DNA of 64,000 nucleotides from assembly GCF_004802635.2 (NCBI RefSeq), contig NZ_CP046052.1, positions 4,339,001 to 4,403,000 of the forward strand, written 5' to 3'. The stretch is from Methylocystis heyeri (lineage in GTDB: Bacteria; Pseudomonadota; Alphaproteobacteria; Rhizobiales; Beijerinckiaceae). This document shows, one piece after another, positions 32,681 to 41,313 of the stretch. The notes under the pieces were generated by a model that was not told the origin of the DNA, ran no database searches, and saw nothing but the letters and a program-made list of their open reading frames with translations. The number at the start of each line of letters is the position of its first letter. Positions within the stretch are counted from its first letter, which is position 1. The translations under genes were made by a program, and so were the position numbers.

Positions 32681-33511
32681 GGCTTGTTGAGATTCATCGC
32701 GAATTGATGAGCGCGGCGGCGAGGCGGATCATGGCTGTGAAGCTTTGATCGGTTTTGTCGGCGCGCAGGGCGATCCGCTTGAACTCCTTGAGTTTGCCGA
32801 AGAAGTTTTCGATGAGGTGACGGGCTTTGTAAAGCTCGATGTCGATGGCGAGAGGCGCGTTTCGTCTTGGATGTTGGGAGATGACGATTTGCGCGCCGCG
32901 CTCGTTCAGTTCGGCGACGATCCAGTCGCTGTCGAAGGCCTTGTCGGCGAGCAGCGCGCCAAATTCGACGCCCTCGATCAAAGGCGCGACGCCGACCGTG
33001 TCGAAGCGTTGCCCCGGCAGCAGAACGAAGCGGACCAAATTGCCGAGCGCGTCGGTGAGCGCGAGGATTTTGGTGGTCCAGCCGCCTTTGGATTTGCCTA
33101 TGGCCTGGCCCTGAGTCCCCCTTTTGCGCCCTGTCCATGGCGGTGGACCTTGACGATGGTGGCGTCGATCATGGCGTATTCCATGTCTGGATCGTCCGAC
33201 ACGGCGTCAAACATCCGCTTGAACACATCGGCCTTCACCCAATCGCGAAAGCGTTTGAACACGGTGTTCCACTTGCCGAAGGCGGGAGGCAGATCGCGCC
33301 AGGGGCTGCCCGTGCGCGCAATCCACAAGATCGCCTCTAAAAACAATCGCCCATCGCTCCCGGTCCGGCCGGGATCGGAGGGCTTGCCAAGACAAAAGGG
33401 CTCCAGCTTCGACCATTGGCCGTCCGTCAGACAGAATCGGGGCATTGCAAACTCCTTTCGGAGCTTGAATCATCCTTCCACCAAAATGGGAATCCTGATT
33501 CTCAACAGGCC
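32681..33511 (-). mobile_element. IS5 family (IS427-type) insertion sequence
   Basis: 831 bases. Ends: GGCTTGTTGAGATTC on the left and, read inward from the right, GGCCTGTTGAGAATC, an imperfect terminal inverted repeat of about 15 bases. Both ends are flanked by CTAG (32677-32680 and 33512-33515), the expected target duplication for this group. It encodes one transposase in two frames. It separates surf1 from thrC. Confidence 0.88.
32694..33445 (-). CDS. IS5/IS427-type transposase, two frames joined by a -1 frameshift
   Basis: First frame (33445 to ~33098): LTDGQWSKLEPF, DGRLFLEAILWIARTGSPWRDLP in parts (ILWIARTG, SPWRDLP), and AMIDATIVKVHRHGQGAKGG, holding the first Asp of the DDE triad. 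Second frame (to 32694): LLADKAFDSDWI (second Asp) and HLIENFFGKLKEFKRIALR (Glu). The frames meet at a AAAAGGGGG run near 33113-33121; stepping back one base gives a continuous ...GAKGGTQGQAIGKSKGGW. Full catalytic triad remains, so programmed frameshifting is more likely than decay. Confidence 0.8.
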
Positions 33512-35691: not shown

Positions 35692-35788
35692 CCCCGGCGT
35701 GTTTTGCGCGGCGGGCGAGCGCGCGCCCTTTCGCGCCCGCCCGGTTCTTGCTATCTCGCGGCCTCCACACTCGAAAAAGGATTGGATG

Positions 35789-36328
35789 ATGAGCGGGATC
35801 TGGCTGGCGACGGGCGAGGCGACGGTATTGGCGGCGGACGGGCAATATACCGACGCCATGCCCGAGGTGATGATCGGCAACGTCAAGGGGCCGGTGGGAC
35901 ACGCCTTCGCCTCGATGGCGGGGCAGGTGGCCGGGCATCCGCGCATGTTCGTGATCAGGGACCTCAACCAGCAGGTGCGTCCCGCCACCATGATGACCAC
36001 CAAGATGACGGTGAGGTCGGAGGCTTATGTGGAGCTGCTCGGCGGCGTGGTTCAGGCCGCGACCGGCGACGCGATCATCGATTGCGTGGCGGAGGGCATT
36101 CTGCCCAAGGCGGAAGCCGGCGAGCTCTGCATGGTCATCATGGTCTGGCTCGATCCCCGCTGCGCGACCGACGAGAACCTGGACCGCAAGGATCTCTACC
36201 GCACCAATTACGAGGCGACCAAGCTCGCGATTTCGCGCGCCGTCAAGGGCGAGCCGACCATCGACGAGCTGATCAAGAACCGCAAGACGATCTCGCATTA
36301 CGCGCTGGAAGGCGTGTTCGACGTTTAA
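35789..36328 (+). CDS. Divergent formaldehyde-activating enzyme (Fae) family protein
   Basis: 179 residues. Fae condenses formaldehyde with tetrahydromethanopterin in methylotrophs. The family is recognisable by IGNVKGPVGHAFASM, TKMTV, AEGILPKAEAGEL and especially TNYEATKLAISRAVKGEP. From recalled Fae sequence, the proposed catalytic His (His17 of Methylorubrum Fae) aligns with Met24 in DAMPEVMIG, so that side chain is missing. It may be a Fae2/Fae3-type paralogue with another role (C1 carrier binding or sensing). AAGGA lies seven bases before ATG 35789. It converges on the bufferin-like genes. Confidence 0.82.
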   Translation: MSGIWLATGEATVLAADGQYTDAMPEVMIGNVKGPVGHAFASMAGQVAGHPRMFVIRDLNQQVRPATMMTTKMTVRSEAYVELLGGVVQAATGDAIIDCVAEGILPKAEAGELCMVIMVWLDPRCATDENLDRKDLYRTNYEATKLAISRAVKGEPTIDELIKNRKTISHYALEGVFDV

Positions 36329-36391: not shown

Positions 36392-37186
36392 TCACGCCAC
36401 AGCCAGCTCCGCTCCCGTCACCAACCCTTCCGAAAACCAGCTTACGAGAAACTGTGCGAGGCGCTCGGCGGCGGGCTGTTCTTCGTTCTGGAACGCGACC
36501 ATCTGGCAGATTTCGCCGAAGGACTGGCCGGCGCGCGCCTCGTTGAGCGCCAGAAACTCATCGGCCTCGAGACCTCGGTAGAGAGGATCGTGATTGGAGC
36601 GCCACACCGCGACAGCCTCCAATCCTTCCTCCGGCGGCGGGATTTCTTCGCCCTCGTCCGAGTTCAGCGCGATATATGCGTCGAGCGTGCCGGCGGCGAC
36701 TTCCAGCAAGCGAAAGCTGGGATGGAAGCTGAAACTGAGCCTCGGCCAGTCCTCGGGCGAAAAATCGGCCAGGGTCTCGATCGAGAGAACGGGAGCGTCG
36801 GCGGCGTCGAATGCGTCGGTCAACGCCCGTTCGAACATGGCCATGCCGATGGCGGGCAGGTCGAAGCGCCATTCTTCATGCTGGCGCATGAATTCGGGCA
36901 GTCGCGAGGCGTACCAGCGGGCGTTTCGATCCCGGGAGGGATTGGCGGCGATATATTCTTCGACCAGCGCCTCGAAGACGTCATCCCCGACCAGCGCGCG
37001 CAGCGTCGGGTAGTCCTCGTCGAGATATTCGGCGAGCCGGATGCGGTAGGCGCTGACGTAAACGCCGAATTTGGTGGGCTTGTCGGCGCCGCCTTGCGCC
37101 GAGACCGCGCCGAGAACAGCGGCGTCTTCCTCGTCGCCGGCGAGGACTGCAGCCTGAAAAAGGCTTTGGAGCTCCTTGAGGTTCAC
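36392..37186 (-). CDS. DUF2063 / BufC-like partner protein of the MNIO enzyme
   Basis: 264 residues from GTG 37186, which overlaps the stop of the MNIO gene (GTGA). N-terminal half matches the DUF2063 'putative DNA-binding' domain: LQSLFQAAVL, FGVYVSAYRIRLAEYLDEDYPTLRALVGDD in parts (VYVSAYRIRLAEYL, DYPTLRALVGDD), FEALVEEYIAANPS. The C-terminal half is acidic. Proteins of this family assist DUF692 enzymes by recognising the precursor peptide (known for bufferin and methanobactin-type systems); a DNA-binding role is not supported by context. Confidence 0.85.
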   Translation of the reverse strand: MNLKELQSLFQAAVLAGDEEDAAVLGAVSAQGGADKPTKFGVYVSAYRIRLAEYLDEDYPTLRALVGDDVFEALVEEYIAANPSRDRNARWYASRLPEFMRQHEEWRFDLPAIGMAMFERALTDAFDAADAPVLSIETLADFSPEDWPRLSFSFHPSFRLLEVAAGTLDAYIALNSDEGEEIPPPEEGLEAVAVWRSNHDPLYRGLEADEFLALNEARAGQSFGEICQMVAFQNEEQPAAERLAQFLVSWFSEGLVTGAELAVA

Positions 37187-38028
37187 GCGCGGCTCCGCTG
37201 CTCCGGCGCGGGAAGAGCCGCGTCTATGTCGCGCATGCGCTGCAGTTCCGCGAGCAGTTCGGCGAAAGGCGGGAAATTGTCGTCGCGCTCGATCATGGCC
37301 GAGACGTCGCCGAAGCGCCGCCGGGCCAGGGCGTAGAGCGACCACACCTCTTCGCTCACGGGCTGGTCGTGGGTGTCGATGCGATGGGTTTCGTTGTCGG
37401 TGAAGCCCGCCATATGCATTTGAGCGACGCGGGAGGGAGCAATCGCGTCGATATAACGGCTGGCGTCGAAGCCGTGGTTGAAGGCGGACACGGCTACGTT
37501 GTTGACGTCCAGCAGCAGCATGCAGTCGGCCCGTTCCGTCATTGCCGAGACGAACTCCCATTCCTCCATTTCCGATTCTGCGAAAGAAACATAGGTGGAG
37601 GGGTTCTCGACGACGAGCGGGCGCCCGAGAAAATCCTGCACCCGGAGGATTCGCTCCACGACATGGTCGAGCGCTTCCGCCGTATAGGGGATCGGCAGAA
37701 GGTCGTGCAGATTGACGCCCCGCACCCCGGTCCAGGCGAGATGGTCCGACACCCAGGCCGGCTCGATGCGCTCGGCGAGCGCTTTCAGCGCCGCGAGATA
37801 GTCGAAATCGAGCGGATCGGTCGAGGCGAGCGACATCGAAACGCCGTGCATGACGATCGGGTAATCGGCGCGCACGCGTTCCAGCATCGCCAGCGGCCTG
37901 CCGCCGGGGATCATGTAATTCTCGGAAATGATCTCGAACCAGTCGACCGCCGGCTTCTCCGACAGAATTTCTTCGTAATAGACTGGTCTTAGACCCAGGC
38001 CGTAGCCCAGGCGAGGAAGCGGGTCCAT
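37183..38028 (-). CDS. MNIO (DUF692) multinuclear iron oxidative enzyme, BufB-like
   Basis: 281 residues, TIM-barrel iron enzyme that modifies Cys residues of precursor peptides. Candidate metal ligands in the conserved positions: H61 (VMHGVSM), H96 (SDHLAW), E141 (VENPSTY), D174/N177 (LLLDVNNV), H185 (NHGF), H205 (MHMAGF), H220 (DTHDQPV) and E247 (IERDD). GGAGG stands eight bases before ATG 38028. It is downstream of two small Cys-containing exported peptides and overlaps the DUF2063 gene, the arrangement of bufferin RiPP operons (copper-binding peptides). The exact product is inferred. Confidence 0.9.
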   Translation of the reverse strand: MDPLPRLGYGLGLRPVYYEEILSEKPAVDWFEIISENYMIPGGRPLAMLERVRADYPIVMHGVSMSLASTDPLDFDYLAALKALAERIEPAWVSDHLAWTGVRGVNLHDLLPIPYTAEALDHVVERILRVQDFLGRPLVVENPSTYVSFAESEMEEWEFVSAMTERADCMLLLDVNNVAVSAFNHGFDASRYIDAIAPSRVAQMHMAGFTDNETHRIDTHDQPVSEEVWSLYALARRRFGDVSAMIERDDNFPPFAELLAELQRMRDIDAALPAPEQRSRA

Positions 38029-38129
38029 TTTGATGCCCTCCCGCGACGGCGGCGCGCCGCCGTCGCGTGAAGTAGAAAATAGCAAAAGGCGACCGTCACG
38101 CCAGAGCGTTCGTCGCCTCTCGTCGCCTG

Positions 38130-38384
38130 TCAGTCGATGACCTTGCCGCCTTCGCTTTCGCAGGCTTTGGCGGAATCCTTGTAGATCCAGCCCTGGCCCT
38201 TGCAGGCGTTGGCGCCTTTGCAGCTGTTTTTGGGCGTCATGCAATCGCTCTTGCCCTTGCAGCCGTTCACCCCGAAGCAATGAACCTTGCCGGTTTCGGC
38301 GGCGGCGGGAGCGACCCCGCCGGCGATGGCGAGCGAGACCGCGGCGATGGCGAGCGCGGCTCCTGAGCGCGATTTGTTCTTCAT
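38130..38384 (-). CDS. Bufferin-like RiPP precursor (six-Cys exported peptide)
   Basis: 84 residues. Sec signal peptide (ALAIAAVSLAIAGGVAPAAA, cleavage about after residue 29), then a mature part of ~55 residues with six Cys: C36 (HCFGVNGC), C42, C48, C55, C61 (ACKGQGW) and C75 (ACESEGG). The HCFGVNGCKGK and CKGQGW pattern is what I know from small proteins encoded beside DUF692 enzymes. The MNIO enzyme gene starts 100 bases downstream. Expected to be modified on Cys and to bind copper in the periplasm; that is by analogy. Confidence 0.82.
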   Translation of the reverse strand: MKNKSRSGAALAIAAVSLAIAGGVAPAAAETGKVHCFGVNGCKGKSDCMTPKNSCKGANACKGQGWIYKDSAKACESEGGKVID

Positions 38385-38433
38385 GCGGTTGTTCCAGAGG
38401 TTGGGGTTGACATACGCCTATTCGCGGCAAGCG

Positions 38434-38655
38434 TCATTTTGTTTCGCTTGCGGACTCCGCGGGGGCCGGGGCCGCCGCGCCCTTGCCGTTCGACTTGGCG
38501 GAGCAACCGTTCTTGCCGCCGCAGCCGTGCTTGTCGACTTTCTTGTGATGTCCCTGGGTCTTGTGGGGTTTCGCCGCGGCCGGAGCCGCGCCGGCCAGAA
38601 CCAGCCCGACCGCCGCAGCGGCGACGGTCGCTCCGCAAAAGATTTTTGCTTTCAC
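38434..38655 (-). CDS. Second small exported His/Cys peptide, possible MNIO substrate
   Basis: 73 residues from a GTG with AAGGAAG just before it. Signal peptide IFCGATVAAAAVGLVLAGAAPAAA, then a short mature part with KPHKTQGHHKKVDKHGCGGKNGCSAK and a Pro/Ala/Ser tail. It has only two mature Cys (C45, C51) spaced C-x5-C, and four His (31, 36, 37, 43). It is co-directional and 49 bases upstream of the six-Cys precursor. I do not recognise a named family; it could be a second precursor or a metal-binding accessory peptide. Confidence 0.65.
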   Translation of the reverse strand: MKAKIFCGATVAAAAVGLVLAGAAPAAAKPHKTQGHHKKVDKHGCGGKNGCSAKSNGKGAAAPAPAESASETK

Positions 38656-39004
38656 GCGATCTTCCTTTCTCGCGCCCTCGCCAAATCGAGGCGTCAGACT
38701 GAAGTCCGGCCGCTCGCCGCTGTCAAGATGCTCGGTCGCGGAAAGCTTGCGCGACCTTCTCCCGCCGTCTCGGGCCGCCCCGGAGCGGAGCGGCGATCTC
38801 CGCGAAGAGCGTTTTTATATCTTGTGGGCGGCGCTTTCCGCCGTTTGCGTCGCCTGCGCCGACCGGCGGGCTACCCGCCTTTAACCATTTGATTGCTTAT
38901 AGCTTGTACTTGGCGGTCTGACCGGTTGCGCTTTTCCGGGCGTCGTGTAGGTTGCAGTTCATAGTGCTGTGCAATTCACTCTCGAAATTTCCAAGGTTTT
39001 CGAA
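38656..39004. other. Intergenic region upstream of the bufferin-like genes
   Basis: About 350 bases, probably carrying the leftward promoter of the bufferin-like operon and the rightward promoter of the small gene at 39005. No clear copper-responsive operator (for example CueR or CsoR type) was recognised by eye. Confidence 0.4.
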
Positions 39005-39271
39005 ATGGTCGACAATGCAAGACTGAAAAGCTGGTTGGATCGCGCCGATTCGATCGTCCGGCAAAAAGACTTCGACTGCGCAGCCGCGCTGGATCTCGCC
39101 CGGGAAATAAGGCTGGAGCGCATCTATGGCGTTTCGTGGCGGGCGACCCAGGCTTTCATCGTGATGGACAAGGCTCATCGGCGCGATCACGGCCGCGACG
39201 CCGGGACGGCGCTTCAGGCTTTCAGCGACATGCGCGAGGCGCTGGTGGAGCAACTCCCCTACTCCAAGTAA
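39005..39271 (+). CDS. Hypothetical protein, helical
   Basis: 88 residues beginning MVDNARLKSWLDRADSIV, mostly amphipathic helix with Arg/Asp/Ala; no domain recognised. ATG 39005 is preceded by CCAAGG at eight bases; an upstream in-frame GTG at 38969 would add twelve residues. Located before rpsA in the same direction, with a hairpin between them. Confidence 0.5.
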   Translation: MVDNARLKSWLDRADSIVRQKDFDCAAALDLAREIRLERIYGVSWRATQAFIVMDKAHRRDHGRDAGTALQAFSDMREALVEQLPYSK

Positions 39272-39558: not shown

Positions 39559-41313
39559 ATGTCATCCGCAACTGCCCAGCGCGCCCCGTCGCGCGACGAT
39601 TTCGCCGCCCTGCTCGATGAAAGCTACGGCGGCTCCGACGCCTTGGAAGGTTCCGTCATCAAGGGCCGCGTGGTCGGGATAGAAAAAGACGTCGCCGTCA
39701 TCGACATCGGACTGAAGACCGAAGGCCGCGTCCCCCTGAAAGAATTCACCGGCTTTGGCCGCGATCCCGCTCCGCAGGTGGGCGAGGAGGTTGAGGTCTA
39801 TCTGGAGCGCATCGAAAACGCGCTCGGCGAGGCCGTCATCTCGCGCGAGAAGGCGCGCCGCGAAGAGAGCTGGGTCAAGCTCGAGAAGGCCTTCGAGAGC
39901 AACGAGAAGGTCGAAGGCGTCATCTTCAACCAGGTCAAGGGCGGCTTCACGGTCGATCTCGACAGCGCCGTCGCCTTCCTGCCGCGCAGCCAGGTCGACA
40001 TCCGCCCGATCCGCGACGCCGCGCCGCTGATGAACGTGCCGCAGCCGTTCCACATCCTCAAGATGGACCGCCGCCGCGGCAATATCGTCGTGTCGCGCCG
40101 CACGGTTCTCGAGGAGAGCCGCGCCGAGCAGCGTCACGAGATCGTCGCCAACCTCGAAGAGGGGCAGGTGATCGAGGGCGTCGTCAAGAACATCACCGAT
40201 TACGGCGCCTTCGTGGATCTCGGCGGCATCGACGGTCTGCTGCATGTGACCGACATCGCCTGGCGCCGCGTCAACCATCCGTCCGAAGTGCTCACGATCG
40301 GCCAGACCGTTCGCGTGAAGATCATCAAGATCAATCACGAGACCCACCGCATTTCGCTCGGCATGAAGCAGTTGCTGGAAGATCCCTGGCAGGGCATCGA
40401 GGCCAAATATCCGATCGGCGCCAAGTTCCACGGCCGCGTGACCAACATCACCGATTACGGCGCCTTCGTGGAGCTGGAGCCGGGCATCGAGGGACTGGTT
40501 CACGTCTCCGAAATGTCCTGGACCAAGAAGAACGTCCATCCCGGCAAGATCGTTTCGACCAGCCAGGAAGTCGACGTTCAGGTGCTCGAGGTCGATCCGG
40601 TCAAGCGCCGCATCTCCCTCGGCCTCAAGCAGTGCCTGCAGAATCCCTGGGAAGCCTTCGCCGAGAAGCATCCGGTGGGCTCGATCGTCGAAGGCGAGGT
40701 CAAGAACAAGACCGAGTTCGGCCTCTTCATCGGCCTCGACGGCGACGTGGACGGCATGGTCCATCTCTCCGATCTCGACTGGAACCGTCCGGGCGAGCAG
40801 GTGATCGAGGAATACAAGAAGGGCGACGTCATCAAGGCGCAGGTTCTCGACGTCGACATCGAGAAGGAGCGCATCTCGCTCGGCGTCAAGCAGCTTGCGG
40901 GCGATCCCTTCGCCACCGCCAGCGTCGAGGACGGCGGCACGGTCGAGATCAAGAAGGGCGCCGTGGTCACCTCCGAGGTGATCGAGGTCAAGGAGTCCGG
41001 CATCGACGTCAAGATCGTCGGCACCGACCTCACGACCTTCGTCAAGCGCGCCGAGCTGGCGCGTGACCGGGCCGACCAGCGCCCCGAGCGTTTCGCCGTC
41101 GGCGAGAAGGTCGATGTCCGCGTCACCCTGTTCGACCGCAAGGCGCGCAAGATCGCCGTGTCGATCAAGGCGCTTGAAATGGCCGAGGAGAAGGAAGCCA
41201 TCGCTCAATATGGCTCCGCCGACTCGGGCGCTTCGCTCGGCGACATCCTCGGCGCCGCCCTTAAGGCGCGCGAAGGCGAGGCCGCCAAGAAAAAGGGGAA
41301 AGGCGAGGAATAA
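39559..41313 (+). CDS. rpsA: 30S ribosomal protein S1
   Basis: 584 residues with six S1 (OB-fold) domains, e.g. GSVIKGRVVGIEKDVAVIDI, GVIFNQVKGGFTVDL, GVVKNITDYGAFVDLGG, GRVTNITDYGAFVELE, GEVKNKTEFGLFIGL and a diverged sixth SEVIEVKESGIDVKI. S1 brings mRNA to the 30S subunit. Start ATG 39559 has AGGAGA eight bases upstream; the frame is open further left but that part is non-coding in character. A strong terminator follows. The usual neighbour cmk is not next to it here. Confidence 0.96.
   Translation: MSSATAQRAPSRDDFAALLDESYGGSDALEGSVIKGRVVGIEKDVAVIDIGLKTEGRVPLKEFTGFGRDPAPQVGEEVEVYLERIENALGEAVISREKARREESWVKLEKAFESNEKVEGVIFNQVKGGFTVDLDSAVAFLPRSQVDIRPIRDAAPLMNVPQPFHILKMDRRRGNIVVSRRTVLEESRAEQRHEIVANLEEGQVIEGVVKNITDYGAFVDLGGIDGLLHVTDIAWRRVNHPSEVLTIGQTVRVKIIKINHETHRISLGMKQLLEDPWQGIEAKYPIGAKFHGRVTNITDYGAFVELEPGIEGLVHVSEMSWTKKNVHPGKIVSTSQEVDVQVLEVDPVKRRISLGLKQCLQNPWEAFAEKHPVGSIVEGEVKNKTEFGLFIGLDGDVDGMVHLSDLDWNRPGEQVIEEYKKGDVIKAQVLDVDIEKERISLGVKQLAGDPFATASVEDGGTVEIKKGAVVTSEVIEVKESGIDVKIVGTDLTTFVKRAELARDRADQRPERFAVGEKVDVRVTLFDRKARKIAVSIKALEMAEEKEAIAQYGSADSGASLGDILGAALKAREGEAAKKKGKGEE

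Follow-up and report, generated by a model that had tools for sequence, protein, structure and literature searches.

The window analysed here, a stretch of 64,000 nucleotides of Methylocystis heyeri contig NZ_CP046052.1, carries on its minus strand an operon of the bufferin type, in which a small peptide gene, here called P2, precedes the genes of a bufferin precursor (BufA2), an MNIO enzyme and a DUF2063 protein. All four genes are co-directional and lie where an earlier, sequence-only reading of this DNA had placed them, including the four-base overlap (GTGA) that the DUF2063 and MNIO genes share:

38434 to 38655, minus strand: P2, predicted secreted peptide of 73 residues with GTG start; mature part with two cysteines (KHGCGGKNGCSAK), His/Lys-rich linker and Pro/Ala tail
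38130 to 38384, minus strand: BufA2 bufferin precursor of 84 residues with six cysteines and a signal-peptide-like leader (NF050166 above cut-off)
38029 to 38129, minus strand: BufA2-MNIO spacer with a strong stem-loop directly before the MNIO start (based on folding and shuffles)
37183 to 38028, minus strand: BufB-type MNIO (DUF692) of 281 residues (NF050167, PF05114)
36392 to 37186, minus strand: BufC-type partner with DUF2063 domain, 264 residues, GTG start (PF09836)

Family assignment of the operon

The products of the last three genes exceeded the cut-offs of their families: BufA2 scored 88.9 bits on NCBIfam NF050166 (cut-off 60), the MNIO 380.4 bits on NF050167 MNIO_BufB (cut-off 310) and 365.5 bits on PF05114 (cut-off 25), and the DUF2063 partner 68.1 bits on PF09836 (cut-off 27.2). 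Judged by these matches, the BufA2-BufB-BufC core is a system of a known kind, bufferin 2, and the earlier assignment to a bufferin-type operon was borne out. The BufA2 leader, as read by eye, has a positively charged start, an Ala/Leu-rich core and an AxA-like end. P2 remained below every family cut-off (16.9 bits on the BufA2 model NF050166, cut-off 60) and is not a BufA2 by its cysteine count (two in the mature part, the third residing within the leader, versus six or twelve). Bufferin 1 was ruled out, as PF10048 (DUF2282, the Bufferin 1 precursor family) was matched neither by P2 or BufA2 nor genome-wide at E 0.001. A DoxX gene was absent from the locus, as had been stated before, with the two PF07681 matches of the genome lying elsewhere; its absence is no sign of anything unusual, since published bufferin clusters contain doxX often but not always (PMC12452194).

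The MNIO blocks HG, SDH, VEN, LDVNN, NHG, HxAG, DTH and ERDxNFPP have aligned counterparts in 3BWW, a DUF692 protein of solved structure. Among these conserved blocks are what we take to be the metal-binding residues. Asp249 and Asp250 represent the proposed catalytic-base and substrate-lysine sites, respectively; the equivalent of Asp250 in the Caulobacter enzyme has been proposed to contact the substrate lysine (PMC13097082). A PDB search with the DUF2063 protein gave no match at E 0.1.

The genome (4.73 Mb in three contigs) contains one MNIO match, one DUF2063 (PF09836) match, no DUF2282 match and, distributed over two loci, three bufferin-type precursors; based on its three AMO/PmoA-family genes, the host is taken as a pMMO-type methanotroph. 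A methanobactin-like copper scavenger that serves copper uptake for pMMO would suit such an organism with no other MNIO, yet it is a most improbable product of this operon: The enzyme reached about 380 bits as BufB versus 83.7 bits on the methanobactin MbnB model (cut-off 325), by which methanobactin itself was ruled out, its partner is a DUF2063 protein, the precursors have signal-peptide-like leaders, and bufferins, according to published work, protect the cell when copper is in excess (PMC12452194). Both systems would have an MNIO-made copper-binding peptide of methanotrophs in common (MbnA-MbnB-MbnC in the case of methanobactin), but differ in MNIO subfamily, partner, leader and expected heterocycle. 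That the sole MNIO of the genome is of BufB type agrees with the distinction from methanobactin drawn by the sequence-only reading; from its proposal of a copper buffer in a methylotroph with high copper demand, the type of host is supported by the AMO/PmoA-family genes, whereas the published function is protection from excess copper and not supply for such a demand.

The spacer between BufA2 and MNIO folds at −52.4 kcal/mol (z −4.12), a value as low as which was reached by 0 of 200 shuffles; the spacers of relatives, which were folded without shuffle control, are likewise foldable and GC-rich with unlike sequence. The stem-loop may keep the enzyme level below that of the precursor and, by this, set the precursor:enzyme ratio.

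P2 and the locus in the genus

Of the 38 genomes of the same genus, 14 carried P2 at the orthologous locus, each time upstream of the main precursor (according to 60 stretches fetched around MNIO genes; MNIO matches occur in 32 of the 38 genomes, one to seven in each). In the first search, which comprised the 38 same-genus and 112 other genomes, the P2 profile A1 scored 61.1-105.2 bits in these 14 genomes and the window; the other matches in the 150 relatives had 42.2 bits at most, the strongest falling on main precursors of the same locus. Outside the genus, A1 matched in five genomes at E 0.008 or better with no more than 40.5 bits, including a Methylosinus-type main precursor and low-scoring others. 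Among 398 genomes sampled from the phylum, with up to 14 candidates scored per genome at a threshold of E 1e-4, two genomes matched, the window's own and one of the same genus. A rule-based scan of 80 named loci revealed P2 in three (L093, L095, L101); no MNIO frame was recognized by pattern in four and no precursor by pattern in six of the 80.

The non-synonymous divergence of P2 (dN 0.10-0.33) was well below the synonymous one (dS 0.62-1.38) in six of six pairs, with the reservation that these are simple NG86 values and several dS exceed 1; as dN is below dS in all pairs, P2 appears to be under purifying selection. A chance open reading frame was ruled out by this ratio together with the conservation at the same place in 14 genomes, which also runs counter to the lack of conservation beside the enzyme that the sequence-only reading had named as one half of its refutation. 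In the 15 available P2 sequences, Met1, Gly8, Ala14, Ala23, Pro25, Ala26 and Ala28 of the leader and Lys42, Cys45 and Cys51 of the core are invariant; linker and tail vary in length. The conserved leader, the short core and the position as first gene of the operon would also be in accordance with a regulator or dosage decoy that, by occupying BufB-BufC or Sec, would adjust how the main precursor matures; for such a role, however, an invariant core Cys pair and lysine would be needless, and we regard it as very unlikely.

The synteny of the locus was followed by two neighbouring genes outside the system, the exact starts of which are uncertain:

35786 to 36328, plus strand: fae-like gene (formaldehyde-activating enzyme), convergent (PF08714, 182.1 bits)
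39559 to 41313, plus strand: rpsA (ribosomal protein S1), divergent (PF00575, six matched stretches)

Among the relatives' loci, rpsA was present in 29 of 32, fae in 20 of 32 and at least one of them in 31 of 32, with the Methylosinus row as the exception; by gene order, the locus is orthologous in the relatives and occupies the same genomic place. The main precursor at this place is nevertheless a His/Cys-rich peptide instead of BufA2 in 28 of 31 same-genus loci. The pair of unlike precursors that had been pointed out before is conserved in some relatives with regard to P2; its second member is mostly a different one.

In the MNIO tree, the enzymes of this locus were united in a single clade of 33 rows (SH-aLRT 97), within which the window grouped with three same-genus genomes that have BufA2 and P2 (support 92); a second clade of 28 rows (support 99) has main precursors of the P9 type (mostly nine cysteines) or P6H type (six cysteines, CHHK) and contains P2 in 11 cases, P2 being missing from a 17-member clade with P6H only. 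One row, inferred to be Methylosinus, has a P9-like precursor without P2. The tree comprised 61 of 68 matches (omitted were four of the eight BufA1-type rows, the fragment L087, L089 and L091) and is a quick tree with flags on long branches and open drawing of 24 of its 57 inner branches; the precursor classes were set by sequence patterns devised for this analysis, with the main precursor of L039 read by eye. A fewest-change count required two changes of the main precursor and two changes of P2 presence. The three branches meet at an unresolved fork, which permits either direction of the former (BufA2 to His/Cys-rich or back); the position of the outgroup enzymes beside BufA2 favours BufA2 as the older main precursor. 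As P2 is found alongside main precursors of either kind, it goes with the enzyme lineage and not with one partner peptide. His/Cys-rich main precursors (CHHK-rich, six or nine cysteines) were observed at the same locus in L036-L062 and L090; in L056 and L062, three precursors follow each other in a row (P2, P9, P6H).

According to these comparisons, the new element of the operon would be P2, a putative second precursor class co-conserved with one enzyme lineage. No description of P2 or of CHHK-type precursors was found in the listed titles and abstracts or in the main-text sections covered; supplementary tables, which lie outside this coverage, may hold P2.

Leader, core and cysteine spacing of P2

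Profile A2 was built from 30 other precursors with no P2 included. In a search of the whole genome it ranked the window BufA2 first (106.3 bits), a BufA2 gene at 661 kb, unlinked to the operon, second (94.9 bits) and P2 third (37.1 bits, E 1.4e-8), while the next and last match listed had E 4. Preliminary results have been reported according to which the signal peptide is part of the sequence recognized by BufB-BufC (PMC12452194); in view of this role, the bufferin-like leader argues, without proving it, for presentation of P2 to the same enzyme.

The core of P2 deviates from that of the BufA2 type in the spacing of cysteine and lysine. In BufA2-type cores (n = 14), lysine is located at +1 of 51 of the 84 cysteines and at +3 of nine; in P2 (n = 15), it is located at +1 of none and at +3 of 24 of the 31 cysteines, compared to a mean of 6.3 and a maximum of 15 in 500 shuffles, which ignore the relatedness of the sequences. 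The +3 position is similarly occupied in P9 (32 of 56 cysteines) and P6H (38 of 54). As none of the 33 enzymes of this locus deviates at Asp250, the Cys-Lys spacing of the presumed substrates differs across the locus while the proposed contact residue stays constant. A search for enzyme residues that switch with the precursor type failed accordingly at Asp250 and left a single column that passed the 85% rule, Ala119 (Ala in 22 of 25 BufA2-type rows, Ser in 27 of 29 His/Cys-type rows), which may reflect plain ancestry.

Several observations weigh against a copper-handling operon with P2 as a second, modified precursor. The kinship of P2 to the bufferins is based mainly on the leader, which contributed 24.6 of 38.8 bits; mutual resemblance is a general trait of signal peptides rich in Ala. 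The core of the window P2 alone scored 10.2 bits, and 13 of the other 14 cores ranged from 15.0 to −3.9 bits. The second cysteine is followed by proline in 11 of 15 P2 sequences (by serine in the window's own), and the related FonBC rejected proline in its core positions (PMC13097082). P2 is dispensable, being absent from 17 of 31 same-genus loci. Furthermore, a sigma-70 scan found no promoter, and no copper-responsive element was identified.

On these grounds, an ordinary bufferin-2 operon has to be considered in which P2 is exported unmodified as a His/Cys metal binder, e.g. a periplasmic copper carrier, and shares its leader by descent. Apart from the weak core and the patchy occurrence, it is favoured by the mere two cysteines with the adjacent proline and by the His/Lys-rich linker of variable length. 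Against it stand the Cys pair and Lys42 as sole invariant core positions, the excess of lysine at +3 over the shuffles, and the occurrence of the same Cys-x-x-Lys spacing in main precursors of the sister clade that are encoded directly before the enzyme gene. Taken together, we consider export of unmodified P2 possible and rather unlikely, and regard as the probable interpretation, by some distance from certainty, a bufferin-2 operon in which P2 is an additional precursor specific to the lineage and would be modified as well.

More tentatively, P2 might belong to an MNIO substrate class of its own that is marked by a Cys-x-x-Lys code, a proposal we consider somewhat doubtful: The enzymes of the locus would accept both Cys-Lys (BufA2) and Cys-x-x-Lys substrates, and His/Cys-rich Cys-x-x-Lys peptides of the CHHK type would have replaced the Cys-Lys main precursor in place in most of the genus, with enzyme, partner, leader and site kept. 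If true, the locus would document in nature how a RiPP (ribosomally synthesized and post-translationally modified peptide) enzyme shifts from one substrate code to another, and P2 would be the bridge between them.

Proposed pathway and unlinked precursor

In the most likely scenario, two or three unlike precursors are turned into periplasmic copper chelators by one and the same enzyme pair. BufA2 and P2 would be made with similar Sec-type leaders, by which the MNIO-DUF2063 pair, the sole pair found in the genome, would bind them; core cysteines would be oxidised to 5-thiooxazoles, and the modified peptides, exported by Sec, would chelate excess copper in the periplasm of the pMMO-bearing cell. 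BufA2 would supply most of the sites, whereas P2, with its single C-x5-C unit and His-rich linker, would act as a small accessory chelator; the unlinked BufA2 would depend on this pair in trans. Gene content, orthology, co-conservation, purifying selection, leader similarity and the single enzyme pair are the direct support obtained here; thiooxazole chemistry, copper binding and (as preliminary result) signal-peptide recognition are transferred from published relatives. That P2 is modified, and what it does, is inferred, with the evidence against it given above. Of the heterocycles named by the sequence-only reading, the thiooxazole is in line with the published relatives, the product of which is a 5-thiooxazole rather than an oxazolone-thioamide (PMC12452194, PMC13097082), so that the latter is not expected.

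The unlinked BufA2 is an 86-residue frame at about 661 kb (L176:6051-6311, G000:C1), divergent from extracytoplasmic function (ECF) sigma and NrsF anti-sigma genes; the MNIO search of the genome found no MNIO adjoining it. In another genome of the genus (G009, locus L087), a related BufA2, a partial MNIO match and the sigma and NrsF genes occur together; this arrangement suggests that the window genome lost the enzyme gene at the unlinked locus and kept the precursor, which would be either modified in trans by the window enzyme pair or left unmodified. The MNIO of L087 may itself be degraded. The interval that separates the unlinked BufA2 from the sigma gene contains two GTAAC-N17-CGA sites (shuffle mean 0.40; at least two sites in 7 of 200 shuffles). 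We assume GTAAC-N16-18-CGA to be a SigF-type motif; SigF-type control of the window operon was rejected, as the motif occurred once in the window, at 16.2 kb, which is at chance level. Sigma/NrsF genes have been reported with Buf1, not Buf2, clusters (PMC12452194), to which the unlinked BufA2 looks like an exception. BufA2-type genes of 86-87 residues with an MKKxxxNGA leader were also seen in L177, L178, L180, L181, L182, L183, L190 and L191 of the same genus, where the P2 profile picked them up outside the MNIO loci that had been fetched; in L063, L064, L065, L069, L070, L071 and L072, a BufA1 cluster lies next to a BufA2 cluster, and each of the two has an MNIO gene of its own.

Compared to Bufferin 2 (Buf2 or Buf_6/12Cys; Caulobacter vibrioides and others), the operon has the same NF050166 and NF050167 families, DUF2063 partner, bufABC order and leader, but differs by the additional, unlike P2 upstream, the lack of DoxX at the locus and the single enzyme pair for precursors at two loci. 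More than one precursor per enzyme is shared with the tandem-precursor clusters and those with several precursors per MNIO-PME1 pair (PMC12452194); in the two-precursor loci L112, L151 and L163, however, both precursors are of the Cys-Lys BufA2 kind, in contrast to the two different motif classes here. The MNIO and DUF2063 systems of PMC13097082 have the partner, the expected thiooxazole chemistry and a Cys-rich precursor in common with the present one, whereas P2 and the relatives' His/Cys precursors, with mainly Cys-x-x-Lys, are outside the three groups named in its available sections. The CxxxxC precursor family (PMC12452194) resembles P2 in its signal peptide and closely spaced Cys pair; compared by description, that family has 76 proteins and a Lactamase_B_2 gene in 54% of its clusters, while P2 is mostly C-x5-C.

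Whether one MNIO-partner pair modifies several precursors was left open in the 2025 landscape paper (PMC12452194). The present genome, in which a single MNIO and a single DUF2063 protein face three bufferin-type precursors from two loci, offers a clean test, and the orthologous enzyme beside Cys-Lys, Cys-x-x-Lys and His/Cys-rich precursors across the genus constitutes a panel from which the substrate code used by a large enzyme family might be learned. In addition, a predicted copper-buffering RiPP separate from methanobactin is added to a pMMO methanotroph, in which copper handling is central.

Elsewhere in the window, two adjoining minus-strand frames (32694-33445) resemble, by eye only, an insertion-sequence transposase in two parts. 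On the plus strand (38969-39271), divergent from P2, a frame for a conceptual protein of 100 residues had no family match over cut-off; among the 60 fetched stretches, a relative of it was present in L032 only (62% identity).

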